This document shows positions 36,282-52,483 of a DNA stretch of 64,000 nucleotides, in pieces; the first letter of the stretch is position 1; each line of letters opens with the position of its first letter. Both the position numbers and the translations under genes were made by a program. The DNA comes from Pedobacter sp. BS3. GTDB lineage: Bacteria > Bacteroidota > Bacteroidia > Sphingobacteriales > Sphingobacteriaceae. Under the pieces are notes generated by a model, which made no database searches, had not been told where the DNA came from, and saw nothing but the letters and a program-made list of their open reading frames with translations. The stretch is from positions 1-64,000 of the forward strand of contig NZ_VTRT01000008.1 of the NCBI RefSeq assembly GCF_008274585.1, in the 5' to 3' direction.

Positions 36282-37703
36282 TCAGCATTCCGGCAAACTT
36301 ACCGGTATGGTAACCGCCAAACCTCCATCGGATGTTTCCTTATATTTAATGCTCATATCTTTTGCAGTTTCCCACATGGCTTTTATTACGCCATCTAACG
36401 TAACTCTTGCATTTTGAGAATTAGTTTGTAAAGCAAGCTGAGAGGCAGTAATAGCTTTAATAGCTCCCATTGCATTACGCTCAATACAGGGAATCTGTAC
36501 CAGACCCGCTATCGGATCGCAAGTTAGCCCCAGATGATGCTCCATAGCAATTTCCGCTGCCATTAATACCTGCTGCTGCGAGCCTCCTAAGCATTCGGTC
36601 AACGCAGCTGCAGCCATTGCCGATGACACTCCAATTTCTGCCTGACACCCGCCCATAGCAGCCGAGATCGTCGCTCCTTTTTTAAAGAGACTGCCAATTT
36701 CAGACGCAGTTAGCATAAATCGTATTATACGATCAATATGAATGCCTTTATTGCAAAAAATTATATCATAGAATAATACTGCCGGTATAACGCCAGCAGC
36801 TCCATTTGTTGGTGCAGTAACTACACGCCCAAAAGCGGCGTTCTCTTCATTAACCGCCAGAGCAAAGCAGCTCACCCAATCCAGGATATATTGAAACTTA
36901 TTACCCGCCTTTCTGATTGCGGTTAACCAGCTATTAAAATCCGTATACTGAGTGGTATTAATAAGGTCTTTATTAATGGAAGCAGCACGGCGTATTACAT
37001 TTAAACCACCGGGTAATATACCCTCTGTATGACAGCCCCTGTATACACATTCATTCATTACCCGGAATATGTTTAAGACTCCTTCACGAATATCTGTTTC
37101 AGAACGCCAGGCCAACTCATTACGCATAATAATATCAGAAACTTTTAAACCCGACTGCAAACACCAATTTAACAGATCATCGGCGGTATGAATAGGAAAT
37201 GGCAATGTAACTTCAGTATTTAGAGAGGTTTTCTCATCAGGATTTATCACAAAACCACCGCCAATTGAATAATATGTTTGTGACAGGGCTTTTCCGTTCT
37301 GAAGAAAAGCCTGAAAGGTAACAGCATTAGGATGAAACGACAACTCCTCTTCAAATAGAAAGCAAATATCATCTGACGCAAACGTAATTTCTTTAAGTCC
37401 TCCAAGAAGTAATTGATGTGAGGTATAAATCTGCTGTACCTTTGAATTAATCCCGGATGTATCAAAGGTAACTGGATCATAACCGCTCAAGCCCAATAGC
37501 ACGGCTATATCTGTTCCGTGCCCCCTACCGGTTTTGGCTAATGAACCGTATAGTAAAATCTTAACCTGCTCAACACTTTCTAATGCCCGTTTTTGTCCAA
37601 GCCATACAACAAATTGTTGTGCAGCCCGCCATGGGCCAAGAGTATGAGAACTGGAAGGACCTATACCTATTTTAAAAATATCAAATACAGATATTTGTGT
37701 CAT
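36282..37703 (-). CDS. sdaA: L-serine ammonia-lyase, iron-sulfur type
   Basis: A 473-residue single-chain enzyme that converts L-serine to pyruvate and ammonia using a [4Fe-4S] cluster. The N-terminal beta domain has [16 protein letters not shown] and the alpha domain has [14 protein letters not shown]. Cluster-ligand candidates are Cys in MGGCQAE, LTCDP and QIPCIERN. Last gene of a nine-gene catabolic operon, 29 bp after the TonB receptor. Its presence suggests that serine or a serine-like 3-hydroxy-2-amino acid arises in this pathway, which is unusual for a glycan locus. Confidence 0.92.
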
Positions 37704-37732: not shown

Positions 37733-40087
37733 TTAATAATTAAAAAATAATTTTACCGAAATACCATACGTACGGGGGTTACCTAAATGCACAGCCCCGA
37801 AATCATAAGCATAATCAGCATATTTTTTATTCAGAATATTACTTCCCCAAAAAAACACTTCAGTCTTTGATATCGTAATACCTGTTCTGACATTAATTAA
37901 ACCATAACCTTTTTGCGCTATCGTATTAGCCATATCAAAAAACTGCTTCCCCAAATATTTCCATTCGCCATGTATTATTAGTTTCATTTTATCAGAAAGC
38001 CCATAGGTATCTTTCAATGCCAGTACCGATGTTATGATCGGTGTAAATAATTGTCGTTTGCCCTTTCGTGTAGATATTGAGCTGCCCATCGGGATGGCTG
38101 AGTTTTTATAGCGTGCATGTGTATAGCCGAAATTATATAGCAATTCAACATTTTTGAACGGAGTTGAAGACAACTCTACCTCAACTCCTTTACTGTTTAG
38201 CTTTCCTACGTTCTGGGTAATTACAACAGCATCAGGTAAAACTAATACCGGCAGTTGTGCATCGACTACACTGGTGAAAAAAAATGCAGTATTTAGTTTT
38301 AACCGGTTGTTCAAAAAGACATGTTTTGAACCTATTTCAAAATTATTACTATGTTCTGGTTTATAAGTATGTAACGGTAATTGTGCAGGATCTGAGGTTA
38401 ACTGCGATATACCACCAGCACGAAAGCCACGATTATAAGCTGCATAAATGTGATGATTATGATTGATATGATATATGACACTGGCTTTGGGCAATAATGC
38501 ATTAAAACTGACACCCGATGAAGTATCTGCCTGTGTAAGCATTGTCTCCTCTCCTTCCATCCGGGCTTCGCCCCGGACATACTGTGTTTTATATTCATTA
38601 TCATACCTTAATCCTAAACTACAATCAAGCTTTGGTATAATACTATAGGTAAGGTCGCCAAAAAACGCCAGTCCAAAACTATTTGATTTGTTGGTATTAA
38701 TACTTGTATAACCCGGATATGGAGCACCAACCAACGCTGCATCATCCCCAAAATGTGTACCTTGCTTTACGGGACTATACTGATAAAAAGAATAAGCGCC
38801 TAATGTCCACTTAACAGAAGATGATGCCGGCGAAGTAAAGCTGACTTCCTGAGTTAACACCTGTGCTTTATTCCATTTTCTGCCATAGTTGTTCACAATG
38901 GTAATTCCATCAATCGAAGAAAAGTCACCGTCTATAGGTTTGGTATAATAGCGATAATTGTATTGATAGGCGGTTTGTGAATTAAATATAACCCCGGCTC
39001 CAACATAACGAACGGTTAATGATGAATTAAATACGTTGTCTTTGAGCAACGTTAAAGCATTCTGATTTAATTGAAAAGGACTGTTAAGAGCAGTTATCAT
39101 TCCACTAACCAGTGGAAATGCTCCATGATTACGATTGATTACATGTTTTATGTTTAAGGTGTAAGACCATTGCGGACCGGCCAATAACTTAAGGTAATAA
39201 TTCCCCGAATAGCTACTCTGCCTGTCAAATCTCGAGTTATTATATTGATTAGTATAGAATCCGCCTTGTTTATCGTAGAGTCCGGCCACACCCCAAAAAA
39301 GTTTATTTTTTATGAGTGGAGATCGAAAGCTAAAACTATAACGTTGTAAACCGTAATTCCCCAGGTCAAGTCCAACATATCCTTCTGTCCTGTCTCCTGG
39401 TTGTTTGGTGATTATATTAATTACTCCGCCCATTGCATTTCTGCCGTACAATGTACCTTGTGGCCCTCTTAAAACTTCAATACGTTCTACGTCTTGTAAT
39501 TGTGCAATATAAGTATCTAATCCAAACTGGTTTACTCCGTCAATATAAGTAGCAACCGCCTGATCATACGAAGTGGTGGCTATACCACGTATAGAAGTAA
39601 CATTTCTGTAATCGCCGGAGCTTGATGAATACAGATTGGGAACTATTGCAGTGATATCTTTGATATCCCATAACTTATAATTATTAATTTGCTCTGAAGT
39701 AAGCGTAGTAATACTAACAGGTAATCGCTGCATTTCTTCATCTCTTTTTTGCGCCGTTACCAATACTTCGCTTAATGCCACATTTGCATCCTTTAAAACA
39801 ATTGTCAATGGCTCATTCTTATCTTGCACTTTTACTGATCGGTACACTGTTGTATATCCTACAGCACTTACCTGAAATATGTAACTGCCTTTAACAATAT
39901 CTTTTATGTTGAAATTGCCTAAGCTATCTGTTATGATATTTATCGTTGTATTGAGAATATATAAAGCAGCGCCGGAGATCGGCAGAGATTTATCATTCAA
40001 AACCAGTCCCTTAACAACAACCTGTTGTGCATTTATGGAGAAGCACCTGGTAAATAATAAAACAAACAGGTATACTACTTTCTTCAT
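37733..40087 (-). CDS. TonB-dependent receptor with carboxypeptidase-like N-domain
   Basis: A 784-residue outer-membrane receptor: signal peptide (to about 20), carboxypeptidase-regulatory-like domain (VVKGLVLNDKSLPISGAAL), TonB-box-like EVLVTAQKRDEE, plug with VERIEVLRGPQGTLYGRNA and GGVINIITK, then a beta-barrel ending in Phe-Asn-Tyr. It lacks a SusD partner and is of the shorter, catecholate-siderophore/FecA-like build rather than SusC type. Inside the nine-gene operon it probably imports a small ligand or breakdown product. Ligand unknown. Confidence 0.9.
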   Translation of the reverse strand: MKKVVYLFVLLFTRCFSINAQQVVVKGLVLNDKSLPISGAALYILNTTINIITDSLGNFNIKDIVKGSYIFQVSAVGYTTVYRSVKVQDKNEPLTIVLKDANVALSEVLVTAQKRDEEMQRLPVSITTLTSEQINNYKLWDIKDITAIVPNLYSSSSGDYRNVTSIRGIATTSYDQAVATYIDGVNQFGLDTYIAQLQDVERIEVLRGPQGTLYGRNAMGGVINIITKQPGDRTEGYVGLDLGNYGLQRYSFSFRSPLIKNKLFWGVAGLYDKQGGFYTNQYNNSRFDRQSSYSGNYYLKLLAGPQWSYTLNIKHVINRNHGAFPLVSGMITALNSPFQLNQNALTLLKDNVFNSSLTVRYVGAGVIFNSQTAYQYNYRYYTKPIDGDFSSIDGITIVNNYGRKWNKAQVLTQEVSFTSPASSSVKWTLGAYSFYQYSPVKQGTHFGDDAALVGAPYPGYTSINTNKSNSFGLAFFGDLTYSIIPKLDCSLGLRYDNEYKTQYVRGEARMEGEETMLTQADTSSGVSFNALLPKASVIYHINHNHHIYAAYNRGFRAGGISQLTSDPAQLPLHTYKPEHSNNFEIGSKHVFLNNRLKLNTAFFFTSVVDAQLPVLVLPDAVVITQNVGKLNSKGVEVELSSTPFKNVELLYNFGYTHARYKNSAIPMGSSISTRKGKRQLFTPIITSVLALKDTYGLSDKMKLIIHGEWKYLGKQFFDMANTIAQKGYGLINVRTGITISKTEVFFWGSNILNKKYADYAYDFGAVHLGNPRTYGISVKLFFNY

Positions 40088-40097
40088 TCCAGTTGCT

Positions 40098-40478
40098 TTA
40101 TTTCTTATCTAAAGAAAGGATATACCTTACTATTTTCTTGGCATCAATAACGGAAATTGAGGCATGAGGAGCCATTGGGATACTTCCCCATACACCGCTT
40201 CCACCTTTAATAATTTTATCGGCCAACATAGTAATATTGGAATTTGTTGCAGTATATTTTTTTGCAATATCTACATAAGCCGGGCCTACTAATTTCTCCT
40301 GGATTTTATGACATGCAAAACAATCTGCTTTTGCAATCAGTGCTTTTCCTTCTTCAATTCCGATGGTTGAAGTGCTTTGTATAGGATTTACTTTAGTAGT
40401 TTTAGGTTCTCCTTTCTGAGCGTACAGGTTGTGGCTCACAAAAACAATTAAGCATGCAAGAATTTTTCTGGTAATCAT
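40098..40478 (-). CDS. Small periplasmic c-type cytochrome
   Basis: A 126-residue protein with a signal peptide (cut near 20) and one haem motif, CFACH (about 54-58), with a likely distal Met in IPMAPH near the C-terminus. Class I cytochrome c of the c551/c552 type. It is placed between a beta-propeller dehydrogenase-like gene and a TonB receptor, 38 bp after the former, and probably accepts electrons from that protein or from the cupredoxin. Confidence 0.9.
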   Translation of the reverse strand: MITRKILACLIVFVSHNLYAQKGEPKTTKVNPIQSTSTIGIEEGKALIAKADCFACHKIQEKLVGPAYVDIAKKYTATNSNITMLADKIIKGGSGVWGSIPMAPHASISVIDAKKIVRYILSLDKK

Positions 40479-40516
40479 TTTATAAATAATGTGTTACTAA
40501 TTGGTTAACATTAAAG

Positions 40517-42013
40517 TTATTTTGATGGCAGCAGCTTATTAAGTGTATAACAAATCAGGGTATTGGCCAATGGCATGCCACTATTGCTTTTAATTTTATC
40601 AAGATTTAATTCATAAATGAACCCGGGTTCCAGGGTCTCTAATTCTAATGATACTTTTTTATGGTCGGCAGATAATTTTACACGCTTTACAGGAATGTTT
40701 GCCAATCCAAATTGCTTAGAACCATATTCTTTACGATACTCGTAATAATAATGACGAAACGTATAATTTTCAGGTTTAAGAGCCTCTGTTGAATCTACAG
40801 GCTGAGTAAACGTGAGATTAAAACCATCTGCCGTAAGATTCATTGAATAAATATCCATTGGCAGCACACCGGTGTACGTTATATGCTGAATACCTTCATC
40901 CCCAAGCCATCCATGCGAGTTCTGACCTACCCATAGGCTTCCATCCGGTGCAAAGGCCAAACGGTTATTCCCTTTGCGCAATCCCTGATTATCTATAAAC
41001 GGAATGCAGGCTCCCTGCAATTCCCCTCCAACTTTCTCCAGCATTACTCTTACAATGCGTTCCCGGTTCATTTCGCCTACTAAGAATTGCCCTGAAAATG
41101 GCCCGAACTTTCCCTTAGTATCATCGATTACTGGCTGTGTAGGCGAGTTTGCTATAATGCCATGTGGAAATAATACGGAAGCTTTAGTACGCATGTTATC
41201 CAGCTCTGCAACCGGGACAGCAAACGGCGATCCTTTATTCCAGTCTTTTTGCCAAACCAGGCTGGCGGGATGCCCGTAAAACTTACCTTCCTGAACGTGA
41301 TAAAATGTACTGGTCCCCAGCCAATCTCCCTGGTTATCTGTAGCAAATAAATTACCTTGAAGGTCAAACCCTATTCCATTAGGAGAACGAAATCCTGAAG
41401 CAAAAGGATGCAATTTTCCGTCGGGAGTTAACTTCATAATCCAGCCACGGTAAGGTACCGCAGAAAACATTTGCTTACGTCCGTCATCACCATCACGACC
41501 CAACAGGTTAATTTTTCCACGCACCTCTTTTCGTATTCTTCCTGCAGAAGATGACGCATTCAAGGCAATATATAAATTACCTTTTTTATCACTTACAGGC
41601 CCATAATTAAACTCGTGGTAATTTCCTGATATACCAAAATCGTCGGTAACTTTCTCGTATAGGTCAGCCTCTCCATCGCCATTGGTATCTTTAATCCTGG
41701 TTAATTCAGGCCTTTGCATAATCAACAATTCGGAGTTACTAATTACCAGTATCCCCAAAGGGTCGTGCAAACCTTCCGCAAACAGTTTCCATTCCCTGAT
41801 TTGCGGATTATAAATCATCACTTCACCCCTTGTAAAACAGGCAACCAGATTCCCGTTAGGTAAAAAAGCTAACCCTCCTACTTCACTGGTTAACCCGGCC
41901 GGCATCTCAATATTCTCTACAATATATGAGCTTACAGGAACCTGTTTATAGGGTACCGCCTCAACAAACAGACAAAAACATAATAATGCACCCAAAATTT
42001 GCTTATTTATCAT
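40517..42013 (-). CDS. Exported beta-propeller protein related to membrane-bound sugar dehydrogenases
   Basis: A 498-residue protein with a signal peptide. The six-bladed propeller (about 30-370) has LAFLPNGNLVACF, GDGEADLYEKV, ASGFRSPNGIGFD, LFATDNQGDWLG and APDGSLWVGQNSHGW, and is followed by an Ig-like C-terminal domain (about 385-495). The build matches PQQ/NHL-type heads of the large putative membrane-bound dehydrogenases of Bacteroidota and Planctomycetota. With cytochrome c and cupredoxin neighbours (38 bp and 7 bp), it is plausibly the oxidising subunit of a periplasmic redox chain. No cofactor can be confirmed. Confidence 0.7.
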   Translation of the reverse strand: MINKQILGALLCFCLFVEAVPYKQVPVSSYIVENIEMPAGLTSEVGGLAFLPNGNLVACFTRGEVMIYNPQIREWKLFAEGLHDPLGILVISNSELLIMQRPELTRIKDTNGDGEADLYEKVTDDFGISGNYHEFNYGPVSDKKGNLYIALNASSSAGRIRKEVRGKINLLGRDGDDGRKQMFSAVPYRGWIMKLTPDGKLHPFASGFRSPNGIGFDLQGNLFATDNQGDWLGTSTFYHVQEGKFYGHPASLVWQKDWNKGSPFAVPVAELDNMRTKASVLFPHGIIANSPTQPVIDDTKGKFGPFSGQFLVGEMNRERIVRVMLEKVGGELQGACIPFIDNQGLRKGNNRLAFAPDGSLWVGQNSHGWLGDEGIQHITYTGVLPMDIYSMNLTADGFNLTFTQPVDSTEALKPENYTFRHYYYEYRKEYGSKQFGLANIPVKRVKLSADHKKVSLELETLEPGFIYELNLDKIKSNSGMPLANTLICYTLNKLLPSK

Positions 42014-42020
42014 CGTGTTA

Positions 42021-43181
42021 TTATTTTTTCTTTGGAATTATCATCACAATAGTAAATTCTCTGGCCTGTTTGGCTGTTAGCTTTAGTTTACCATTTTCCC
42101 ATTCGCCGACAGATGAATGATAGATCACTTCTTGCTCAGAGCCTGAGACAAACCAAACTGCCTGATGCACTTTGGGAATTTTAAACGTGCGTACTAAGCC
42201 ACTCCCATCCATCTTTGGAGCTATCAATTCATACACATCCAAACCATTTAGGGTATAATGAAATTCCGGATACCTGTTAATTAGCCTGTATCCTTTATAA
42301 TCTACTTTTGGAATAGCATCAGCATATTTTACCCGCAACGGATAAGCTGTTGTATCTTTAAAGAAGATACTGCCAACAACATTGGCAAGAGCATCGCCTT
42401 TCCCTTTCCATAAATCTGAATTATCCAGAAAACCACCTTTCCAGGCAAATCTCAAACGGCAGGTGCCTGCATCCCAACAGTAAGATAAGTCTCTTGGCAG
42501 GCTAACTGCTATAGCAGCCGGGCTTGCTCCGTTAATAAACACGCGATATAGGTATGGCGCTAACGGTGTATATGGATGCAAAGGCTTATTCATTTCATGG
42601 TGGTCCTGATGCATATTCTGTACAGGCTTGTTCGCTGCAACAGGCTCTGCCTGTCGTCTACCGGGTGGTATATGCGTATCATTTCTAATATCCGGCAAAT
42701 TGGCATTAGTAGTTACATACATAGCACCATACATGATATAGCCATGTCCCGGGTACGTACACACATAAGGATAAATACCACCTTTCTCTGGCGCTGTAAT
42801 GTCTAATACCTTAGTTTGCTCCGGCGCTGTAACCGGAATAGCCCACATTACTTTTGATGATTTGGGAATATAATTCATCTCCGGCCCTTTATCGCCTAAT
42901 TGCAGCGCAGCATTAACCACATCTTCACGTGCATCAGGTTGGGTTATTACCAGATTATGATCCATATCATCCGTATTAGAAAAAACTATTTTGACTTTAG
43001 CGCCGGGATTAACTTTAAATCTTGGTAAGCTAAATTGCAATCCTGTTAATACATGAATGGATACAATGGTTGTATCTTGAGCACTGACCTGCAGAACCAG
43101 GCCTGATAACACTATAAAAGAAATCAAACCCTTATTTAAGAGATTGCACATCTGACGCTGCCAATATACCATCAATTTCAT
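42021..43181 (-). CDS. Exported cupredoxin-domain protein
   Basis: A 386-residue protein with a signal peptide (cut near 34; an internal Met 11 is an alternative start). The plastocyanin/azurin-like domain (about 40-155) shows a full type 1 copper set: His in MDHNLVI, Cys and His in VCTYPGHG, Met in YIMYGAM. The C-terminal half (about 205-380) is a domain otherwise seen fused to putative membrane-bound dehydrogenases, with a YRVFINGASP start. It probably carries electrons between the neighbouring propeller protein and the cytochrome. Gaps are 3 and 7 bp, so it is tightly coupled in the operon. Confidence 0.85.
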   Translation of the reverse strand: MKLMVYWQRQMCNLLNKGLISFIVLSGLVLQVSAQDTTIVSIHVLTGLQFSLPRFKVNPGAKVKIVFSNTDDMDHNLVITQPDAREDVVNAALQLGDKGPEMNYIPKSSKVMWAIPVTAPEQTKVLDITAPEKGGIYPYVCTYPGHGYIMYGAMYVTTNANLPDIRNDTHIPPGRRQAEPVAANKPVQNMHQDHHEMNKPLHPYTPLAPYLYRVFINGASPAAIAVSLPRDLSYCWDAGTCRLRFAWKGGFLDNSDLWKGKGDALANVVGSIFFKDTTAYPLRVKYADAIPKVDYKGYRLINRYPEFHYTLNGLDVYELIAPKMDGSGLVRTFKIPKVHQAVWFVSGSEQEVIYHSSVGEWENGKLKLTAKQAREFTIVMIIPKKK

Positions 43182-43184
43182 ATT

Positions 43185-44483
43185 TTAAAACTTAGTAGTA
43201 AACATTCCCTGGTAATGTGATGACTGCTTAAATATTCCTCCGTTGTCTAAATAAAAACTTTCATCCAATTCAAATATGCCGTTCTTTACTTTTGTCCACG
43301 AAGCATTTGCGCAAGGGTGATAATTCATCATAGTTTGCCAGTTACTGTAATTCATATCACCATTTATTTCCATCAATCCCATTTCAATACCCGGAAAAGG
43401 GGCTAAACGGGAGGCCATATTTTTATTCCAGTCTATTAATATAGGGTTAACCGTTAAATCGGCGCATAAACATGGTACATTATGTTTATGTGCCAACTGG
43501 GCCAGCTTTAATGATAAACTTAATGTTTTAGCAATACTTTTTAATACTAAAGCACTATAACCCTGTTGCAATCGTTTTAATGCACTGGCTTCATCATGAA
43601 TGCTTTCATCGCCTGCTATTCTCACTTCAATGTCAGATACATCTTCATCGTAATCTTCTTCAAACGGTTCCTCATATAACAAAATCTGGTCAAACGCTTC
43701 TATTTTTTTAGCATGCTCCAAATAGCTGAGTATACTCTCCTTAGTCTTATATCTGCCATTGGCATCCATCGTGTAAAGTAATCTGCCGTTGGATGTCTGG
43801 TGAGTACGCATATCCTTTAATGCGCAATGTATCTGCGTAAGTCTATCCTTATCTCTCTCCAGCATTTCATTCGGTGATCCCGGGTATCCGGTTTTAATTT
43901 TAAAAATAAAATAACCTTGCTGCGCTGCCCGTTGTATCTCAGCAACAGGCATATCATAAGAGACCTGATAGATTACTCCTATTTTGTTATTGCGATGAGA
44001 TAACGTATAGCCATAAGGTTCCGGGAGCATCGAGTGAAAATCTGAGTAATTATTTTCGGCAGCATATAACATCCAGGCGGCATTATCAATGCTTACCAAC
44101 GCATTGTAAATAAAATTTACATGTAAATCTGGTTTACCGGTTATCCTTTTAGCTGAATTTATAGTTTCGGGCAGCAGGTTGTCCAATAGCTCAACAGGAT
44201 TAGTAAATGTGCTCTTCCCAACCAATTTCAATACCTCACTAACCAGCGCATACATTAATGCATTACCCCCGGCCTCAGAGTAAGTTGTAAATAGTTTAGC
44301 ATCTCCATACAGAACGCTTTGCGTGGCCAGACCTATTTTATTGATACCTGAGTCTGACTCCAGTTTTGACACAATCTGCCATAATTCTGTAAGATAATTA
44401 CCTTTAAAGCCAAAAGGTCGCACCAGTTTCTCCCGTTCAAAATTTGAATCAGTGCGAAGAATCTGTATCTTTTTAATACTCAT
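43185..44483 (-). CDS. Enolase-superfamily enzyme (mandelate racemase/muconate lactonising type)
   Basis: A 432-residue cytoplasmic enzyme. The barrel residues are visible: KIK on strand 2 (IFKIKTGY), metal ligands in TMDANG, YEEPFEED and AGDES, and a second-side Lys in LVLKSIAKT. A Lys on each face is the arrangement used by epimerases and some acid-sugar dehydratases. It abstracts a proton next to a carboxylate. Reaction unknown: an aldonate/uronate dehydratase or an epimerase would fit the DHDPS-family aldolase encoded 20 bp upstream. Length is within the family's upper range. Confidence 0.85.
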   Translation of the reverse strand: MSIKKIQILRTDSNFEREKLVRPFGFKGNYLTELWQIVSKLESDSGINKIGLATQSVLYGDAKLFTTYSEAGGNALMYALVSEVLKLVGKSTFTNPVELLDNLLPETINSAKRITGKPDLHVNFIYNALVSIDNAAWMLYAAENNYSDFHSMLPEPYGYTLSHRNNKIGVIYQVSYDMPVAEIQRAAQQGYFIFKIKTGYPGSPNEMLERDKDRLTQIHCALKDMRTHQTSNGRLLYTMDANGRYKTKESILSYLEHAKKIEAFDQILLYEEPFEEDYDEDVSDIEVRIAGDESIHDEASALKRLQQGYSALVLKSIAKTLSLSLKLAQLAHKHNVPCLCADLTVNPILIDWNKNMASRLAPFPGIEMGLMEINGDMNYSNWQTMMNYHPCANASWTKVKNGIFELDESFYLDNGGIFKQSSHYQGMFTTKF

Positions 44484-44503: not shown

Positions 44504-45580
44504 TTAAACCTTGACCGGATTTTCACTGCGAAGCCATTCTGCTACAAAAGCATCATCTGTAAGATGTGGATAAGCTGAGCATACACGATCTATTTCTTCC
44601 ATCTGCCCTGCAGAAAGCTCTTCCTGCGGATTTAAACACCAGCGCCCGTCTAATAGCCCCTGCCTGCGTAGTACCTCATGAATACCCGGGATGCAGCCAT
44701 GAAAACTGTGCGCCGAATCAAATATGGCCGCGTTCATATCTGTAACCTGAATTCCTTTGGTAAGCAGATCTGCCATATCGCCCCTGCCAGAGGCTTTGCA
44801 GTTCTTAATTTCTTTTAATAGCTGTACAGCGGCATGGGTCCATACCGCCCAATGACCTAATAAACCGCCAACAAATTCTTTTTCTACCGTTTTACCATTT
44901 ATTGTAAAACGATAGGTTGTTAACAAATCAGCAATAATATTATCATCATTACCGGTATACAACGCAATTTCGTTGCTACGACTTGAATGACACACGGCCC
45001 TTACTACGTCCAGGGTTTGATAACGGTTAAAGGCGGCTACCTTTATGGCCTCAATATTGGCAATTTCGGCAAATTCAAGCCAGAAGTCATAGCTAAAAAT
45101 TCTCCCCCCGACACTGGGTTGCAGATAAAAGCCAAATACCGGAATTACAGCTGCAACGGCACGCACCCGGTCAAGTATTTGTTGTTCTGTCCAATTTTGT
45201 AGGCCACCCATGCTAAGCAAACCCAGATCGTAATTATATTTAATTGCAAGTTCAGCTTCCTTAACAGCCTGTTCTGTTGGTCCACAAATACCGGCAACCT
45301 TAATAAAAGGATATAACAATTGTGCTTTCTCTACTTCTTCAGCAGCCAGCATTAATACGGTTTCATACAGATTCACTTTAGGGTCCCTGATTTCAAACTG
45401 TGTACTATGTACACCTACTGCTATTCCACCCGCTTCTGCGGCTATGTAATAACGGGTTAATCTACGCTGGTGGGCTTCATCAAGCCTGCGCTTTTCATTC
45501 AGTGCCAACGGATGAGCAGGTATCACTGTACCGGCGTGCAGTAGATCTCTTTTGTTCTTTCTTAATGCTTGCATTATCAT
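44504..45580 (-). CDS. Dihydrodipicolinate synthase-family (DHDPS/NAL) aldolase
   Basis: A 358-residue class I aldolase-type TIM barrel. The Schiff-base Lys is in IEAIKVAAFN. The N-terminal half has TRYYIAAEAGGIAVG where the family usually has GTTGE, so the carboxylate-binding loop is altered. It is about 55-60 residues longer than classical DHDPS or NanA. In this operon it should cleave or form a 2-keto acid, possibly releasing pyruvate. A single base separates it from the SDR downstream partner, implying tight coupling. Substrate unknown. Confidence 0.82.
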   Translation of the reverse strand: MIMQALRKNKRDLLHAGTVIPAHPLALNEKRRLDEAHQRRLTRYYIAAEAGGIAVGVHSTQFEIRDPKVNLYETVLMLAAEEVEKAQLLYPFIKVAGICGPTEQAVKEAELAIKYNYDLGLLSMGGLQNWTEQQILDRVRAVAAVIPVFGFYLQPSVGGRIFSYDFWLEFAEIANIEAIKVAAFNRYQTLDVVRAVCHSSRSNEIALYTGNDDNIIADLLTTYRFTINGKTVEKEFVGGLLGHWAVWTHAAVQLLKEIKNCKASGRGDMADLLTKGIQVTDMNAAIFDSAHSFHGCIPGIHEVLRRQGLLDGRWCLNPQEELSAGQMEEIDRVCSAYPHLTDDAFVAEWLRSENPVKV

Positions 45581-45581
45581 A

Positions 45582-46598
45582 TTAAAACTTACCCTTTCTT
45601 TCCTGAAAATGTGTCGGCTTATTTAGAATTTCACCCCCTTGTTGCAACCATGCAGCTATCAATTCTATCATTTGCCGAACGCTTACCCTTGGGTATCCAA
45701 ATAAACGATGCGCCTCTGAAGCATTATTTAGTAGCGCTGTTGGTTGTACCTCGTTTTCAAATACGGGCTCTTTTTCAAATATTAACCCAAATTGCTCCGC
45801 AAGCCACTTTACCGATAGTGTTTCAGGACCGGTTACATTTAGTATTTTAGCCGGCACATCGCAATGTTTTAAAGCCCTGATAGCTATTTCATTGGCATCA
45901 CCCTGCCAGATTACATTGACATTACCTGTTGTTAAATCAATTGGCTTACCTTCTAATACAGATTTTGCAATTTCAAGTAATACACCATAGCGCAAATCAA
46001 TGGCATAATTGAGCCGGTAAATCAACGTAGGAATATTGTAAGTTTGAGAGAAGTATTGAAAAATCCGTTCTCTGCCCAGGCAAGATTGGCCATATTCACC
46101 TATCGGCGATACCGGGTAATCTTCTGATGGCCCGCCTGATGTAACAGAGACAAAAGGATATACATTTCCGGTTGAAAAAGCCACAATTCTGGAGTTTTTA
46201 TACCGTTCTGCCACCCGGCCAGGTAAATAGGCGTTCATGGCCCAGGTAAAAGCTTCTTTACCGGTCGTTCCAAACTTATTACCTGCCAGATAAAGCACAT
46301 TTGATGCATCAGGTAAGGCGGCAAGGTGTTTTTCATTAAGCAGATCGGCAACAATGGTTTCAATCCCGTTAGCTTCTAATTCAGCCTTTGTCTCTGCATC
46401 TGAAAAGCGGGATACACCGATAATACGTTTACTTGTACCAGCCTTAGCTGTAGCCTGACGGGCCAGCTTAGCCATAGCAGGCCCCATTTTTCCACCTACA
46501 CCCAGAATAATAATATCGCCCTCAATATCGCAAATATCGGCAACAAGCGCATCTGATGGTTTTAACAGTTCCTGTTCTAATACTTCTAATTCAGTCAT
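45582..46598 (-). CDS. NAD-dependent epimerase/dehydratase-like SDR with altered catalytic motif
   Basis: About 338 residues from the ATG at 46598; upstream in-frame codons overlap the preceding gene and look non-native. Extended SDR fold with a Rossmann loop GVGGKMGPAMA (about 31-41 of this start) and the Tyr motif EYGQSC. The usual YxxxK reads Tyr-Gly-Gln-Ser-Cys, so the catalytic Lys is replaced by Cys. It may bind nucleotide but catalyse poorly or by another route. It lies between the Nramp-related transporter (13 bp) and the DHDPS-family aldolase (1 bp). Confidence 0.8.
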   Translation of the reverse strand: MTELEVLEQELLKPSDALVADICDIEGDIIILGVGGKMGPAMAKLARQATAKAGTSKRIIGVSRFSDAETKAELEANGIETIVADLLNEKHLAALPDASNVLYLAGNKFGTTGKEAFTWAMNAYLPGRVAERYKNSRIVAFSTGNVYPFVSVTSGGPSEDYPVSPIGEYGQSCLGRERIFQYFSQTYNIPTLIYRLNYAIDLRYGVLLEIAKSVLEGKPIDLTTGNVNVIWQGDANEIAIRALKHCDVPAKILNVTGPETLSVKWLAEQFGLIFEKEPVFENEVQPTALLNNASEAHRLFGYPRVSVRQMIELIAAWLQQGGEILNKPTHFQERKGKF

Positions 46599-46611: not shown

Positions 46612-47877
46612 TTAAAAAAATAGTTCCTTAACATTAATAGCGGCCAATAATATGAGGATGATAAGCCCCAGGAAACCAAATATTTTTACGGTAACAGTGC
46701 TCGTGTGTTTTCCCATAATTGCGGTATCATTAGCAATGGCAAACATGGTTATTCCAATAAATGGTACAATAAGAATGGTAATACTTTGAGCCAGAATAAT
46801 AAGCTCAAGCGGAAGTTTACCAAAGATAATAGCTATAGCCGCACCAATACACATAACCGCCGCAATAAGATACTTAACCTTTTTTGAATTAAGCTGGTTC
46901 CCAAAACCAACGGCGTCGCCTAATAATGTACCACCTAATGAAGCGTTGCCAACAAGTGCAGAAAAGGAAGCCCCAAATAAACCACATAAAAAGAGTTTAG
47001 CTGCATTTTTACCGAAAAGTGGCTCTAATGCTTTGGCCATGTCTGTGGCGCTGTTCAATTTTATACCCTTAGGAAATAAAACTGTAGCCGCACAAAGCAA
47101 AACAATGGTAGCCATTATCCCCAATATGATAATCCCGGTAAGGCTGTCTGTGCTTGATTGCTTTACTTTGGGGTTAATGCGTTTTCTCTCCTGAACAAGA
47201 TAGGATTGATAAAATGCCCCTACTACTGAAAAGCTCGAGGCAATAAAAGCAATGATAAGTTCCAAAGAATGGTCGGGAATCAGGGGAACAAAGCCCGGCA
47301 GAACGGTATATAGAACCGGTTCTACCCGTACTACAGTGGTAGTAAACGCTATAAGCATCAGCCCTACAAGAAGCATCATTATTTTCTCGAGGGTTTTATA
47401 AAATCCTTTAAAAAACAATAACCCAATTGCGACGATGTTGAAAATCACGATCCATTGTACAGGCGATGTTTGCGTTAATTCTCCGATAGCAATACCGATG
47501 CCGATTGAATTGCCTGCCTGAAATGAGGCTGCTACCATAAAAATCCCTATGCCGATAGCAACCGAAACCCGCTTTCCCCATTTTTGCCGGATGGTGGTTA
47601 ATAATGACTGATTAGTTGCAATGCCAATTCTTGCCGACATAGAGGTAAAAACCGCCATAAAAAATATAGCTACCACAATAACCCATAACAAGGTATACCC
47701 ATATTCGGCCCCCAACTTGGAAGCTATGGTTATTTTACTTGGGCCGAAAACCAGAGCTGCAGTTATAATTCCAGGACCTAAAGAAAGAAACCACTTTCTG
47801 ATTTTATGAAATATATCTGATTTTAGATTACCCTTATGATGGCCCATGCTTTTTACCTGAACTGATTCCGTTTTCAT
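46612..47877 (-). CDS. Nramp-related transporter lacking canonical metal-site residues
   Basis: A 421-residue inner-membrane protein with about 11 transmembrane helices and clear Nramp homology (LGPGIITAALV, AEYGYTLLWV, SARIGIATNQSL). Where true Nramps have DPGN in helix 1 it has GPSK, and where helix 6 has the MPH motif it reads VVGA. All three side-chain ligands for Mn/Fe are therefore changed. It is the first gene of a nine-gene catabolic operon with an operator 26 bp upstream. A metal role is doubtful; transport of an organic acid, amino acid or magnesium is more likely. The His-rich N-tail (GHHKG) is notable. Confidence 0.85.
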   Translation of the reverse strand: MKTESVQVKSMGHHKGNLKSDIFHKIRKWFLSLGPGIITAALVFGPSKITIASKLGAEYGYTLLWVIVVAIFFMAVFTSMSARIGIATNQSLLTTIRQKWGKRVSVAIGIGIFMVAASFQAGNSIGIGIAIGELTQTSPVQWIVIFNIVAIGLLFFKGFYKTLEKIMMLLVGLMLIAFTTTVVRVEPVLYTVLPGFVPLIPDHSLELIIAFIASSFSVVGAFYQSYLVQERKRINPKVKQSSTDSLTGIIILGIMATIVLLCAATVLFPKGIKLNSATDMAKALEPLFGKNAAKLFLCGLFGASFSALVGNASLGGTLLGDAVGFGNQLNSKKVKYLIAAVMCIGAAIAIIFGKLPLELIILAQSITILIVPFIGITMFAIANDTAIMGKHTSTVTVKIFGFLGLIILILLAAINVKELFF

Positions 47878-47952: not shown

Positions 47953-50316
47953 TTATAAAACAACTTCAGGTTCAAGCTCATGATGACATTTCAACATAAC
48001 AATAAATTGTTGCTTAAGCGCAATATGCTTGCTCTTGTAATAGTTTAGCAGATCACGGCCTAAAATTGTATTTAAGTGATTAAAACGTACTTTTTTGTTA
48101 ACCTGGACAAAACCTATGTGATCGGCTAATTCAGGTTTCAACACACCGCTCACAACCGGAGCATGCAATGTACAATTCGTAAAGAATGTTCCTAAACTTG
48201 CAGATAAGCTATAAAAAATTGTATTAGCATCTTTAATTACGGGCTGAAATAAACAACTAGCGAATGTAAGCCGACCAGGCATTTCATTTTTTAAACTGCC
48301 AGTTAGCCGTGATACACTGCAATGTTCTATAGAAATAGCTGCGATATTGCCACCAAAATCGGCATTCAGGCCCTTACAATCTCTTATATAGATTTCCGGA
48401 TATAAGGCATATTCATCTTTATACTTTTCACCCTTTTTATTGCGGATACTGATATGCAGCCTTTCATTTTCATCCGGTTCTTCCAATTGTACATTATCAA
48501 ATACCATACGAACGTTGGATTCAAACCTCACGCCATCATAATGCCCTTTGCGACCAATATCATAGCCCTGCGGATCTGGTATTGTTAATAGCCGGACTCC
48601 CCTTGTTCTTCCTTCGACTAACACATTTCTAAATACTATATCACGTGGAAAAAAAAGACGTTGTCCCTGCTTCATCCTGGAGAAATCAGGAATGTGCATT
48701 AGCCACAACGATTTGTTAGCATCAGTTACAGCATTATAATCAATAATCAGGTTTTCTACCGTAATAGAACGTCCAAACCCTATTGGATATTTATAGTTAA
48801 AATCCATTGGATTAAAATCCAGAAAAGCGGTTTCTGCGGCAGTAGCCGGAATAAACCGGCAATTATAAATCCGGATAGGTCCATCCCATTTTGAACCAAA
48901 ATCCCGACGGAAATTTATAAAGCTTCTGCTGTAGCAGGACGTATTTTCGAGTAACAATTCGCCACCACCGGTTACTGAAATCCCCCTATATCCTATTTCA
49001 GAATCTTTAATATGTAAGTTCCAGCAATGAAAATGTACATCCACACGATTTAAACGGCAATTCTGTACTTTAAAGTTTTTGTTCAGATTTGTTCCAAATA
49101 CCCCCCAATGTACCGGTCCACCTTCGGCGGTAACATTGCGAAAAAGACCGTTCAGCATCCGGGCTGCACTTATGCCATACGTACCGGCGGGTACATCGTG
49201 CACTGTCCCTTCCCTGTCCTGCTCAAACGGAATGAGATGTACATTTTCCAGGGTAAAATCAAATACTTTAGAGATGGCATAAAAACCGCCACGCGGACTT
49301 GATGCCACATCGGCTTTACCTTGCTCTAAACCAATATACTGGTTACGAATAATTGTACGACTACGGTTAATACCAAATCCGCACTTGAGATAGGTTTTGC
49401 CCGGACTGTTTCCTGATAGATAAAACGTTCCACCATCAATTATAAGATAATTATCGTCTGCCGGATAAGCTGTTAAGCTGGTGTAATTCTTAAACTCCCA
49501 GGCAATATCGCCTATTATTTCACCATGTTCGGCTACATAAAACAGTTCTTCCCTGGCCCAGGATTGCCCTGTAAACTTTGCTCCTGACCGGAATCCTATA
49601 CGATCATTATTATCAGCAACAATAATCAGTGAATTTTTGTATGGTGCAAGCTCCGGGATACGCTTAGTACCGGGCTTTAACACTGCCAGAAAATTCTTTC
49701 TGTCCGTATCGTTAAGCTGTATGGTAACTGGTGTTTTTTTACTGTTTATCTGAAACCGTGGTAATTTACTATTAAAGGCCTCATTTATATGAAAGATAGT
49801 ACTTCCCCATTGCACATTATTCAATATTGGAATATTACCGGTTTTTTCAATCCAGTATTCACCACTAAGATTTATTACAGGGATATTTTTTGTATTAGCG
49901 TAGGTATGAGCCTGCTTTATCTGGACACCATCATCGTTTTTTCCATCACCAACAGCCCCGAACATTTTATAGTTTACACTGCTTACATTGATCAATACTG
50001 CACTTAGATTGTTATCCAAACTTAGTTCTGCACCGTCAGATTCTTTTTGTTTCCGAACAACATATTCAGTTGCACCACCATCGCCAACGGTATAATAACC
50101 TAAAGTACGTACCAAAGTACCCTCCCGTAATGAAATATCTTGTTTTAACTCATTAACAGTATGATATAATTTATATACCACCTTATCGGTATGAACCAAA
50201 ACATTAGTTCTCTCTGAAAAAGCCGCCGCCGGTGTAACGGATAAAGAAGTAATACCAAGTACTTTGAGTGCTTTACGCCGGTTGAAAAAATTGCCAGTCT
50301 TGTTATTTTGTTCCAT
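47953..50316 (-). CDS. Tat-exported pectate-lyase-like/GH28-like beta-helix protein
   Basis: A 787-residue protein with a Tat-type start (FNRRKALKVLG, about 12-22). After an N-terminal cap comes the pectate_lyase_3/GH28-type opening VNYKMFGAVGDGKNDD (about 112-127), then a long right-handed beta-helix of about 600 residues with coils such as GTYGISAARMLNGLFRNV and LHIKDSEIGYRGIS. It probably cleaves or binds the polysaccharide in the periplasm. It is longer than typical GH28 enzymes and I cannot place the acidic catalytic residues. Last gene of the Gfo/Idh-esterase unit starting at 52483. Confidence 0.75.
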   Translation of the reverse strand: MEQNNKTGNFFNRRKALKVLGITSLSVTPAAAFSERTNVLVHTDKVVYKLYHTVNELKQDISLREGTLVRTLGYYTVGDGGATEYVVRKQKESDGAELSLDNNLSAVLINVSSVNYKMFGAVGDGKNDDGVQIKQAHTYANTKNIPVINLSGEYWIEKTGNIPILNNVQWGSTIFHINEAFNSKLPRFQINSKKTPVTIQLNDTDRKNFLAVLKPGTKRIPELAPYKNSLIIVADNNDRIGFRSGAKFTGQSWAREELFYVAEHGEIIGDIAWEFKNYTSLTAYPADDNYLIIDGGTFYLSGNSPGKTYLKCGFGINRSRTIIRNQYIGLEQGKADVASSPRGGFYAISKVFDFTLENVHLIPFEQDREGTVHDVPAGTYGISAARMLNGLFRNVTAEGGPVHWGVFGTNLNKNFKVQNCRLNRVDVHFHCWNLHIKDSEIGYRGISVTGGGELLLENTSCYSRSFINFRRDFGSKWDGPIRIYNCRFIPATAAETAFLDFNPMDFNYKYPIGFGRSITVENLIIDYNAVTDANKSLWLMHIPDFSRMKQGQRLFFPRDIVFRNVLVEGRTRGVRLLTIPDPQGYDIGRKGHYDGVRFESNVRMVFDNVQLEEPDENERLHISIRNKKGEKYKDEYALYPEIYIRDCKGLNADFGGNIAAISIEHCSVSRLTGSLKNEMPGRLTFASCLFQPVIKDANTIFYSLSASLGTFFTNCTLHAPVVSGVLKPELADHIGFVQVNKKVRFNHLNTILGRDLLNYYKSKHIALKQQFIVMLKCHHELEPEVVL

Positions 50317-50357: not shown

Positions 50358-51218
50358 TTAAAGTTTTTGTAAGAATGAAACTAATTCCCCCATTCTCTCA
50401 TTGGTTATCAGGTCATATCTGGCATGCCCTTTCCCTTTCATTATATGTATTTCCGTTTTAGAATTTCCTATTTCATCCATACGCTTTTTTAATGCATACG
50501 CATAGTCAATGTGGATGAGTTTATCCTCATCGCCATGAAATATCAACAATGGAGGAGCACCTTTTTTTATTACATCTGAAGTTTCCAACCCTCCCCACAA
50601 GTCAACAACCGCCTTAATCTTCAGTATATTTTGGTTCGAGGCATAAGCTGTATACAATGCAGTTATAGCTCCGGCAGAACCACCGGAAATTACTATTGAA
50701 GATGAATTTAAATTATGGGCTTTAGTATGTTGTTTTATCCACGCTAATGCCATTTGAGCATCCTCAGAAGCGATTTTAATAGCCTTTTCAAGCGCAGGGT
50801 TAAATTTCCCATCCGACGGAAGGCCTTTTGACATATTTGCACTACAACTGGCTCCAGGTATTTTATGATGCTTTAAATACAACCGGTAATTAATTGAAAC
50901 TACTGCATAGCCGAAAGAAGCCAGTTTAGAACAGAACGCCTCTGTCCCCTTTTTATCGCCACCGCTAAAACCACCGCCATGAATAAACAGGTATACGGGT
51001 AATGTTCCTTTAACAATAACAGGCATATACAAATCAAGTGTCCTGTCAGATGAGGTATCACTACCTATAGAATCTGGCCGGACAGCATATCGTATATTTC
51101 GGTAAATATTTACTTCTCTCCTGTTTTTTACTGCTACCTTTAAAGATTGTATGCCCGGATGGGCAGAAGAAACAGGTGTACAAAGAGCCAGCACTACTAA
51201 GCATATATAATATCTCAT
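50358..51218 (-). CDS. Exported alpha/beta-hydrolase esterase (BD-FAE/HSL-like)
   Basis: A 286-residue protein with a signal peptide (cut after SSA, about 19). It has the oxyanion-hole motif FIHGGGFSGG, nucleophile elbow ISGGSAGA, acid in FHGDEDKL and His in GKGHARYD, so the triad is complete. The family removes acetyl or feruloyl groups from carbohydrates. It adds a third deacylating activity to the locus beside the CE7-like and CE15-like proteins, which argues for a heavily acylated glycan. It is 53 bp from a Tat Gfo/Idh gene and 41 bp from the pectate-lyase-like gene. Confidence 0.85.
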   Translation of the reverse strand: MRYYICLVVLALCTPVSSAHPGIQSLKVAVKNRREVNIYRNIRYAVRPDSIGSDTSSDRTLDLYMPVIVKGTLPVYLFIHGGGFSGGDKKGTEAFCSKLASFGYAVVSINYRLYLKHHKIPGASCSANMSKGLPSDGKFNPALEKAIKIASEDAQMALAWIKQHTKAHNLNSSSIVISGGSAGAITALYTAYASNQNILKIKAVVDLWGGLETSDVIKKGAPPLLIFHGDEDKLIHIDYAYALKKRMDEIGNSKTEIHIMKGKGHARYDLITNERMGELVSFLQKL

Positions 51219-51271: not shown

Positions 51272-52483
51272 TTATATTGAATATTCAGGTTTCCAAACTT
51301 GTACATTACCAGTATCTGCCGCATTATTTCCCATATGTACAGCTATAGCTGCATTCTTACCTGTGTATTCATTTGATACTGGCTTTTTACCGTTACGAAT
51401 GCATTCGGCAAAATCAAGTAATGCATACACTGTAGGATCACGCTTGAGGCCATCAGTATTCTCAAACTTAACAGGCACCCCCTCTCCTTGTGTCCACGCC
51501 TCTATAGTTGCCCCTGTAACACCGTCAACTGTACCCAATTGTTTTTTCTTAGCTTCCGGGTATAAAAATGCCTGATCACGTTGTATCTCAATGGTACCTT
51601 TTGTGCCCAATATCCGGATAGAATAGCCTCTAAATTCATTGGTTAATATGGATGATACACTAGATTTTATTCCCCCGGGGTATTCATATATCATACGTAC
51701 ATTATCATTGGTTTCCCGGCCGTCTTTCCAGTAATCAATTCCTCCAAAGCCGGTAACTTTCAACGGATGACTGTTCAGCATCCAGTTTACAATATCGATC
51801 TGGTGTGCGCTTAATTCTGCAAGTAAACCGCCCGAATATTCCCGATACATACGCCAGTTAACCTGTCGTTCTGTTTTTAGATCCTTCACGGGCCTCCTCC
51901 AATCTGAATTACGATGATATTGACATTCAAAGTGCATGACCGTTCCGAGCCAGTTTTGATCTAATATTTCTTTAATTTTATGATACAAACCAAAATAACG
52001 ATATTGATGTCCAACCTGTAATGCCAGTTTGGAGTTCTTCATCTTTTTAACCAGAGAAAGTGCCTGGTCAATAGAATATGTCATTGTTTTCTCTACATAC
52101 ACATGCTTACCGGCATCAAGCGCATCTACAACCATCTGATAATGCAGATAAAGCGGCGTAGCAATAATCACAGCATCAATATCTTTATTTTCAAGCAACC
52201 TATGATAATCTGTATAGGATTTTGCACCCGGGGCACTTAAGGTTAACCCACGTTTCAGATTCTCATCTACAATATCACAACAGGCTATCAATGATATACC
52301 CGGTAAACCTTTAAGCAGTTGTGCATGACCTGTACCTCTTTGCCCAATACCAATTAAACCAATCCGTACGGTATTGTCATTATTGTTTTTACCTAACGCG
52401 GGAATGCCCAGAGTAGTCAATCCTGCTATAGCTAAAGTACCTGTAGTTATAAATTTTCTGCGTGAAATATTATTATCTGTCAT
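51272..52483 (-). CDS. Tat-exported Gfo/Idh/MocA-family oxidoreductase
   Basis: A 403-residue protein with a Tat signal (SRRKFITTG, about 7-15). The Rossmann loop is RIGLIGIGQRGTG (about 36-48) and the catalytic-site segment is YVEKTMTYS, where the usual EKP is EKT: the Pro is replaced. Downstream GGLLAELSAHQIDIVNW keeps the catalytic His. Periplasmic sugar oxidation is likely. It leads a three-gene unit with an esterase and a pectate-lyase-like protein; an operator lies 32 bp upstream. Confidence 0.85.
   Translation of the reverse strand: MTDNNISRRKFITTGTLAIAGLTTLGIPALGKNNNDNTVRIGLIGIGQRGTGHAQLLKGLPGISLIACCDIVDENLKRGLTLSAPGAKSYTDYHRLLENKDIDAVIIATPLYLHYQMVVDALDAGKHVYVEKTMTYSIDQALSLVKKMKNSKLALQVGHQYRYFGLYHKIKEILDQNWLGTVMHFECQYHRNSDWRRPVKDLKTERQVNWRMYREYSGGLLAELSAHQIDIVNWMLNSHPLKVTGFGGIDYWKDGRETNDNVRMIYEYPGGIKSSVSSILTNEFRGYSIRILGTKGTIEIQRDQAFLYPEAKKKQLGTVDGVTGATIEAWTQGEGVPVKFENTDGLKRDPTVYALLDFAECIRNGKKPVSNEYTGKNAAIAVHMGNNAADTGNVQVWKPEYSI

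Follow-up and report, generated by a model that had tools for sequence, protein, structure and literature searches.

Nramp-related proteins that lack the metal ligands have been described as an outgroup of Slc11 (PMC9606685, PMC10606218, PMC4072509, PMC12873925), and a published tree places Nramp-related proteins as a paraphyletic set at the base of the canonical Nramps (PMC12873925). PxpT of C. glutamicum, an Nramp-family protein 50% identical to YcsG, is reported to be required for growth on 5-oxoproline: deletion of pxpT stops this growth and complementation restores it, metal transport not being excluded by the authors (PMC13274462). YcsG of B. subtilis has been reported as a Mn importer and renamed MntG (PMC10448178), and some NrmT proteins are described as lacking an M-box riboswitch (PMC4072509). 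The Bacteroides genes treated in the relevant part of PMC10434189 are unconnected to the present gene set.

Here we analyzed a clade of such proteins from Bacteroidota, starting from the member encoded in a stretch of 64,000 nucleotides of Pedobacter sp. BS3 (contig NZ_VTRT01000008.1, positions 1 to 64,000; hereafter the window). Public annotation gives such genes, the plasmid relatives included, the name “Nramp family divalent metal transporter”. We argue that it is probably an inner-membrane secondary transporter of Nramp (LeuT-like) fold that would import not a metal but an organic compound formed when glycans are broken down, most likely an anionic acid derived from a sugar, in which case a class of glycan-catabolic importers has been misnamed.

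The transporter gene and its predicted fold

The gene lies at 46612..47877 on the minus strand (the first-pass annotation had the coordinates right and left the strand unstated) and encodes an Nramp-related transporter of 421 amino acids. The protein matched PF01566 with 232 bits against a cut-off of 29.8 (E-value 1.4e-68), covering profile positions 4-355 of 357, and passed the cut-off of the NCBIfam model Nramp_1 (“Nramp family divalent metal transporter”, 106 bits vs 50); it scored under the cut-offs of both MntH-type models, PRK00701 and TIGR01197. The nearest PDB sequence was that of EleNRMT (7qia, E-value 7e-28), with DraNramp second. Structure prediction, proposed as a check in the first-pass annotation, was performed with AlphaFold (AF2) from a 30-sequence alignment and yielded a model with a pLDDT of 84.3 and a pTM of 0.83. 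This model matched Nramp structures with Z scores of 35.1-45.6, ahead of ApcT (Z 31.6) and then other carriers of the ApcT superfamily. Since its superposition on solved Nramps spans 334-396 residues, the transport fold appears whole, and by this model the protein has the complete Nramp fold, its site being altered.

The host genome encodes two PF01566 proteins, the window gene and a canonical Nramp located on another contig (a 632-amino-acid frame with the motifs MDPGN and MPH). A PHROGs search returned no match, on which ground a phage origin of the locus was rejected. We also scanned the window with Rfam, finding no family at its gathering score, as well as six clade loci, where tRNA was the single match and no riboswitch was found; control by a metal riboswitch was rejected for these sequences.

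The central site

Residues of the site were counted in 111 distinct clade proteins (those of the 99 neighborhood loci described below, 11 further proteins and the window protein), with the register set by alignment to DraNramp and EleNRMT. At the position of the TM1 motif DPGN the window protein has G45-P46-S47-K48 (47734..47745, minus strand), which is the GPSK of the first-pass annotation. The Asp is replaced by Gly in 111/111 proteins and the Asn by Lys in 108/111 and by Ser in 3/111, so that the motif reads GPSK in 108 and GPGS in the other 3. The proteins with Ser for Lys48 are the three deepest-branching clade members (L054, L166 and L167), and an anion-binding lysine is therefore not universal. 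In TM3, Q120-A-G-N123 (47509..47520, minus strand) aligns with the DraNramp acids Asp131 and Glu134, which are replaced by Gln and Asn respectively, each in all 111 proteins. In TM6, S214-S-F-S217-V-V219 (47221..47238, minus strand) aligns with A-T-V-M-P-H, pairing M-P-H with S217-V218-V219; the sequence VVGA previously proposed for MPH was off by one in register, which leaves the conclusion drawn from it unchanged. The Met is Ser throughout (111/111), and the His is Val in 106/111 and retained in 0/111. The TM10 glutamine (Gln378) is kept in 110/111, the remaining protein having a gap.

The charged residues conserved at 90% or more within the model helices are K48, R83, E133, E164 and D321. 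We searched the 111 proteins for ligands moved to nearby positions, the case that had been named in advance as refuting the idea; no conserved acid was displaced into TM1 or TM6, and shifted metal ligands were rejected. The clade thus lacks the hallmarks of canonical Slc11/Nramp proteins (TM1 DPGN, TM6 A-x-x-M-P-H and the TM3 acids) and also the NRMT site DxxG-TxxA/T (motif as given in PMC8806188), the Asp of which is missing in 111/111. The alignment confirms that the absence of the metal ligands is real and not due to chance.

The operon in the window

Calculated from the coordinates, the transporter gene and the genes downstream of it through the serine dehydratase gene form a run of nine genes on the minus strand, none of the gaps exceeding 38 bases. 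Directly after the transporter comes a gene for an SDR/epimerase-family protein, hereafter EPI (45582..46598, assigned by Pfam and alignment), for which we used the ATG located 13 bases past the transporter stop as the start, the ORF list giving a longer frame with a TTG start at 46679. It is followed by the gene for a DHDPS-like class I aldolase/lyase of 358 amino acids that keeps the Schiff-base Lys and the Tyr (44504..45580). The run then continues with an enolase-superfamily enzyme (MR_MLE_C, 43185..44483), a protein with copper-binding (azurin-like) and DUF6797 regions (42021..43181), a PVC-type heme-binding/DUF7133 beta-propeller-like protein (40517..42013, under the NCBIfam cut-off), a cytochrome c (40098..40478), a TonB-dependent receptor (37733..40087) and an L-serine dehydratase (36282..37703), all on the minus strand and, apart from the PVC-type protein, assigned by Pfam. 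The azurin/DUF6797, PVC-type heme-binding and cytochrome c genes at 40098-43181 point to an oxidation step in the periplasm that is coupled to electron carriers.

Upstream of the transporter gene are three more codirectional genes, separated by gaps of 75, 41 and 53 bases: a large protein that is pectate-lyase-like by sequence alone, with no Pfam match at an E-value of 0.01 (47953..50316), an alpha/beta-hydrolase esterase (BD-FAE, 50358..51218) and a Gfo/Idh/MocA oxidoreductase (51272..52483), the latter two assigned by Pfam and all three on the minus strand. Next upstream of the Gfo/Idh/MocA gene, 111 bases off, is an RsmB-like ORF named by its sequence. The first-pass annotation had placed the transporter in one operon with an aldolase, an enolase-type enzyme, an SDR and a serine dehydratase, which agrees with the nine-gene run (three of these being assigned by Pfam and the aldolase by fold); it also had the transporter heading the operon, which the three preceding genes contradict. 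Among the neighboring genes scanned with Pfam, no oxoprolinase was found.

Gene order across Bacteroidota

We searched a sample of 151 genomes of the family and found an Nramp match in 137; at least 35 of the 151 carry at least 40 full-length clade members (at least 438 bits), the window member included. For 39 more full-length members and a broken copy we retrieved the surrounding DNA (up to 20 kb each), and we added 80 loci from a genome-contig collection, which were the best 80 of 215 loci encoding relatives and were all from Bacteroidota by title. Of these 120 loci, 20 were discarded as duplicates (using the last 250 Nramp residues) and one, L130, because it lay at a contig end with no ORF, yielding 99 distinct loci without the window, of which 78 came from the genome-contig collection and the remainder from the family sample. 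These 99 loci are related, and the counts below are not independent.

Combining ORF calling with tblastn, we found the transporter, EPI and DHDPS-like genes in series in 92/99 loci. By ORF calling on its own, EPI was the next downstream gene in 89/99 and was followed by the DHDPS-like gene in 86/99; a tblastn search on 13 problem loci raised these counts to 93/99 and 92/99, one of the 93 loci ending at a contig edge after EPI. The median gap is 16 bases between the transporter and EPI genes (89 loci) and -1 between the EPI and DHDPS-like genes (86 loci); in locus L129 a gap of 372 bases precedes EPI. The six loci without EPI comprise two with NagA and NagB genes (L098 and L132), three with neither partner (L104, L115 and L116) and one broken copy (L072). 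Broken copies of the clade transporter are what L072 holds (G092:C56), and the same contig also carries an intact copy. As a control, a canonical Nramp gene was found within 20 kb of a DHDPS-like gene in 0/28 genomes picked among those having both.

The next gene upstream of the transporter encodes a sugar dehydrogenase (GSDH)-cytochrome c protein in 42 of the 99 loci; in the others it is unlabelled (12), on the opposite strand (12), SusD-like (7), LacI-like (7), a sodium:solute symporter (SSF) gene (6), of Gfo/Idh type (6) or of other kinds. Within seven genes of the transporter, BLAST labels identified GSDH-cytochrome c in 55 loci, SusC-like in 58, LacI-like in 18, NagB-like in 17, ENO in 15 and NagA-like in 10, and clusters of GH20 hexosaminidases and of MFS proteins were near it in 9 and 16 loci respectively. 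The SSF genes directly upstream in 6/99 loci and the MFS genes near in 16/99 mean that other importers coexist with the Nramp protein. In the window itself, the GSDH-cytochrome c gene is about 34 kb from the transporter gene. Upstream of the transporter the gene content has been reshuffled, while the core of three genes is retained.

In genus g21, seven genomes have EPI-DHDPS-ENO and no clade Nramp, the corresponding stretches giving nothing beyond weak 63-residue Nramp matches, in 5 of the seven. Two more g21 genomes have the Nramp and the EPI-DHDPS pair at separate loci (L035/L222 and L036/L221). Because these g21 genomes either lack a clade Nramp or carry both apart, an Nramp next to the pair is not needed for the pair to work. 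In Daejeonella (L035/L098 and L036/L132), the clade Nramp is followed by NagA and NagB, with the EPI-DHDPS pair elsewhere in the genomes (L222 and L221). In two of the seven g21 genomes (L172 and L181), an NRMT-like Nramp with the motif DDDPSG follows GSDH-cytochrome c and KELCH genes, which makes a metal role in such a setting thinkable; in other genera, the clade Nramp module is found near GSDH-cytochrome c/KELCH-type genes, the spot taken by the NRMT-like gene in these two loci.

The partner enzymes

The DHDPS-like protein had no PF00701 or NCBIfam match at an E-value of 0.01. When its profile was searched against the PDB, N-acetylneuraminate lyase came first (E-value 4e-7) and DHDPS next, and its predicted structure (pLDDT 90.8) had N-acetylneuraminate lyases as top PDB fold matches (E-value 3e-13). 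The Schiff-base lysine K180 and Y152 are invariant in 19/19 aligned proteins and in 7/7 plasmid homologues, and the protein is modelled with the TIM-barrel fold of NAL and DHDPS. Substrates in the DHDPS/NAL superfamily are 2-keto acids.

EPI is a remote SDR relative in which the catalytic YxxxK reads Y-x-x-S-C or -T. The Lys is missing in 20/20 aligned proteins and in all 8 of the plasmid-comparison set, so that EPI may differ from ordinary dehydrogenases and may catalyse a reaction that is not typical of SDRs. The PDB relatives of the partner enzymes are remote, and the enolase-type gene had no PDB relative at an E-value of 0.01. The EPI family is spread across Bacteroidota, Bacillota, Actinomycetota, Pseudomonadota and Planctomycetota (homologues L257-L263), and the DHDPS-like family also spans five phyla.

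Importers beside the enzyme pair in other phyla

A tblastn search with the DHDPS-like protein matched 20 plasmid records, none of them from Bacteroidota by name; the comparison of importers that follows rests on the 7 of these 20 records that we opened. In 7/7, a homologue of EPI (48-63% identical) adjoins the DHDPS-like gene (52-68% identical) or is one gene off. A tblastn search with six Nramp proteins found no Nramp in these seven stretches, and a different importer is near the pair in 5/7 records. A carbohydrate ABC importer stands beside the pair in Paenibacillus and Streptomyces. In Nitratireductor it is a tripartite tricarboxylate transporter, together with Gfo/Idh and mandelate-racemase-type genes, and a peptide-type ABC system is also next to the pair on the opposite strand; the mandelate-racemase-type protein and the enolase-type protein of the window had no BLAST match to each other. 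In Sulfitobacter and Tistrella, an ABC permease, ATPase and binding protein surround the pair, and in Mesobacillus and Aquisphaera the stretch read, with an incomplete gene table, had no annotated importer. From the organic-solute importers found in 5/7 records, the Nramp protein seems to fill their slot in Bacteroidota.

Relatives and ancestry of the clade

Plasmid matches of the transporter included haloarchaeal proteins 33-35% identical to it, encoded beside Gfo/Idh oxidoreductase and BNR-4 or amidohydrolase genes. An Nramp gene of Neorhizobium (Rhizobiales) adjoins a PF00701 DHDPS-family gene and a LacI regulator. Other ligand-less haloarchaeal Nramps (L236 and L237) are followed by hydantoinase/oxoprolinase A and B genes and are possible archaeal counterparts of PxpT. 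In a 49-row tree, a single group (support 100/97) holds the clade together with the Gfo-linked haloarchaeal proteins and that of Neorhizobium, separate from the canonical Nramps (100/100) and from the NRMT-like proteins (100/100, labelled by their DDDPSG-type motif), and the oxoprolinase-linked haloarchaeal Nramps fall outside the group that holds the clade. All 25 group members have Gly at the Asp position, and Lys48 is confined to the main branch. The grouping of the clade with the haloarchaeal proteins has modest support (90/48), and depth in the tree is unsure because of such modest supports, of long branches that meet and of the midpoint root.

The first-pass annotation had spoken of a recruited Nramp fold whose Asp, Asn and Met ligands were all lost. 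The absence of the three holds across the 111 clade proteins, and what lacks support is the history: relatives with Gly for Asp branch apart from the canonical Nramps and the NRMTs, which does not favor recruitment. Ligand loss was rejected, since the relatives in the group also lack the Asp and the published tree roots such proteins below the canonical Nramps (PMC12873925). On these aligned sequences, with Gly in the nearest relatives and the basal position reported for such proteins, the metal ligands were probably never present rather than lost.

A wider reading, which we put forward tentatively, is that the broad group of Nramp-related proteins (Bacteroidota, Gfo-linked haloarchaeal and DHDPS-linked Rhizobiales) might consist of dedicated importers of sugar-derived organic acids, with the main-branch Lys at the spot of a metal ligand; taken with PxpT, this could make organic solutes the original cargo of the Nramp fold and metal transport a derived trait.

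Proposed function

An organic nutrient is probably transported, and not a metal, because the site has none of the known metal-binding residues and because the protein is encoded in a sugar-breakdown operon, where it seems to hold the slot of the sugar or organic-acid importers of several other bacteria. Periplasmic enzymes of the locus would release the compound from a glycan, the GSDH-cytochrome c sugar dehydrogenase (next upstream in 42/99 loci) may oxidise it, and the transporter would then bring it in, presumably with a coupling ion, via a central TM1/TM6 site where Lys48, Ser214, Ser217, Gln120, Asn123 and Gln364 are predicted to occupy or adjoin the former ligand positions. The SDR-like EPI and the DHDPS-like class I aldolase would process the imported compound. 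Our best guess for the substrate is a sugar-derived acid, given the site Lys, the tricarboxylate-type importer found elsewhere, the 2-keto-acid enzyme family and the sugar dehydrogenase upstream in 42/99 loci. The central first-pass idea, transport of an organic substrate by an Nramp fold in the service of this pathway, thus gains indirect support from the gene order, the invariant non-metal site and the other importers, and it loses the words recruited, lost and heading.

In place of an acid, the protein could import a neutral compound, either an amino sugar (GlcNAc-like) or a sugar (3-keto). The order Nramp, NagA, NagB in the two Daejeonella loci is as compatible with a neutral amino sugar as with an acid, and a neutral substrate is also in keeping with the GH20 cluster in 9 loci, the NagB-like gene within seven genes in 17/99, the Gfo/Idh-like genes common in the loci, the 3-keto-disaccharide hydrolase in the g21 locus L221 and the carbohydrate ABC importers of Paenibacillus and Streptomyces. 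We nevertheless consider it rather unlikely: the site has Lys in 108/111 proteins, the importer beside the pair in Nitratireductor is of tricarboxylate type, the DHDPS/NAL superfamily generally works on 2-keto acids, and a neutral sugar could be served by the putative MFS and SSF transporters (near in 16/99 and directly upstream in 6/99 loci).

That the protein imports a divalent metal through a new site, supplying operon enzymes such as the enolase-type enzyme, the deacetylases and the sugar dehydrogenase, we regard as very improbable. The site has no acidic or soft ligand and has Lys in 108/111 proteins, neither the window nor six clade loci gave a riboswitch match, a separate canonical Nramp is encoded by the host, and organic-solute importers stand beside the same enzyme pair elsewhere; these points outweigh the PF01566 membership, the conserved TM10 Gln, the report of YcsG as a Mn importer (PMC10448178) and the NRMT-like Nramp beside a dehydrogenase in L172 and L181. 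That the protein exports its substrate or senses it for the operon, as the absence of the canonical TM3 proton-path acids might suggest, can be largely dismissed, given a model that superposes on solved Nramps over its transport fold and the importers with binding proteins that accompany the pair elsewhere.

Import of a sugar-derived acid by the clade, if correct, offers a route to what ligand-less Nramp-related proteins carry and bears on whether the metal specificity of Nramps arose from organic-solute carriers. A direct way to the substrate is offered by the partner enzymes, which are fixed, and by the importers, which differ in other phyla.

Comparison with known systems

Like the canonical Nramp/MntH proteins (DraNramp and BfraNramp), the clade has the Nramp fold and the TM10 Gln; unlike them, it has neither DPGN nor MPH nor the helix 3 acids. 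With EleNRMT and the NRMTs it shares PF01566, the fold (Z 45.1) and the lack of the canonical TM6 Met and of the proton path. EleNRMT, however, keeps Asp55 in TM1 and Glu133 in TM3 and is reported to carry Mg and Mn (PMC8806188), whereas the clade is without both residues. PxpT and YcsG resemble the clade in family and fold (YcsG entry 9a52, Z 41.6) and in standing in a catabolic operon, theirs encoding 5-oxoprolinase, which acts on an organic acid; they differ in that the operon is another one and, for YcsG, in a disputed substrate (Mn in PMC10448178).

The closest description is that of the “orphan” Slc11 outgroup (Cellier; BfraNramp preprint), PF01566 proteins said to be without the substrate-specificity motif and the proton path (PMC9606685, PMC10606218, PMC12873925), and by this description the clade most likely belongs to that orphan, ligand-less group. 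The passages describing the orphan proteins give no substrate, gene context or link to Bacteroidota glycans, whereas the clade has a defined catabolic setting. In the literature that we searched, which was largely open-access, we found, by title and abstract, no report of an Nramp clade in glycan or DHDPS operons, nor of transport by this clade. As far as that literature goes, and judging from sequence, what appears new here is a ligand-less Nramp-related protein with a defined catabolic setting.
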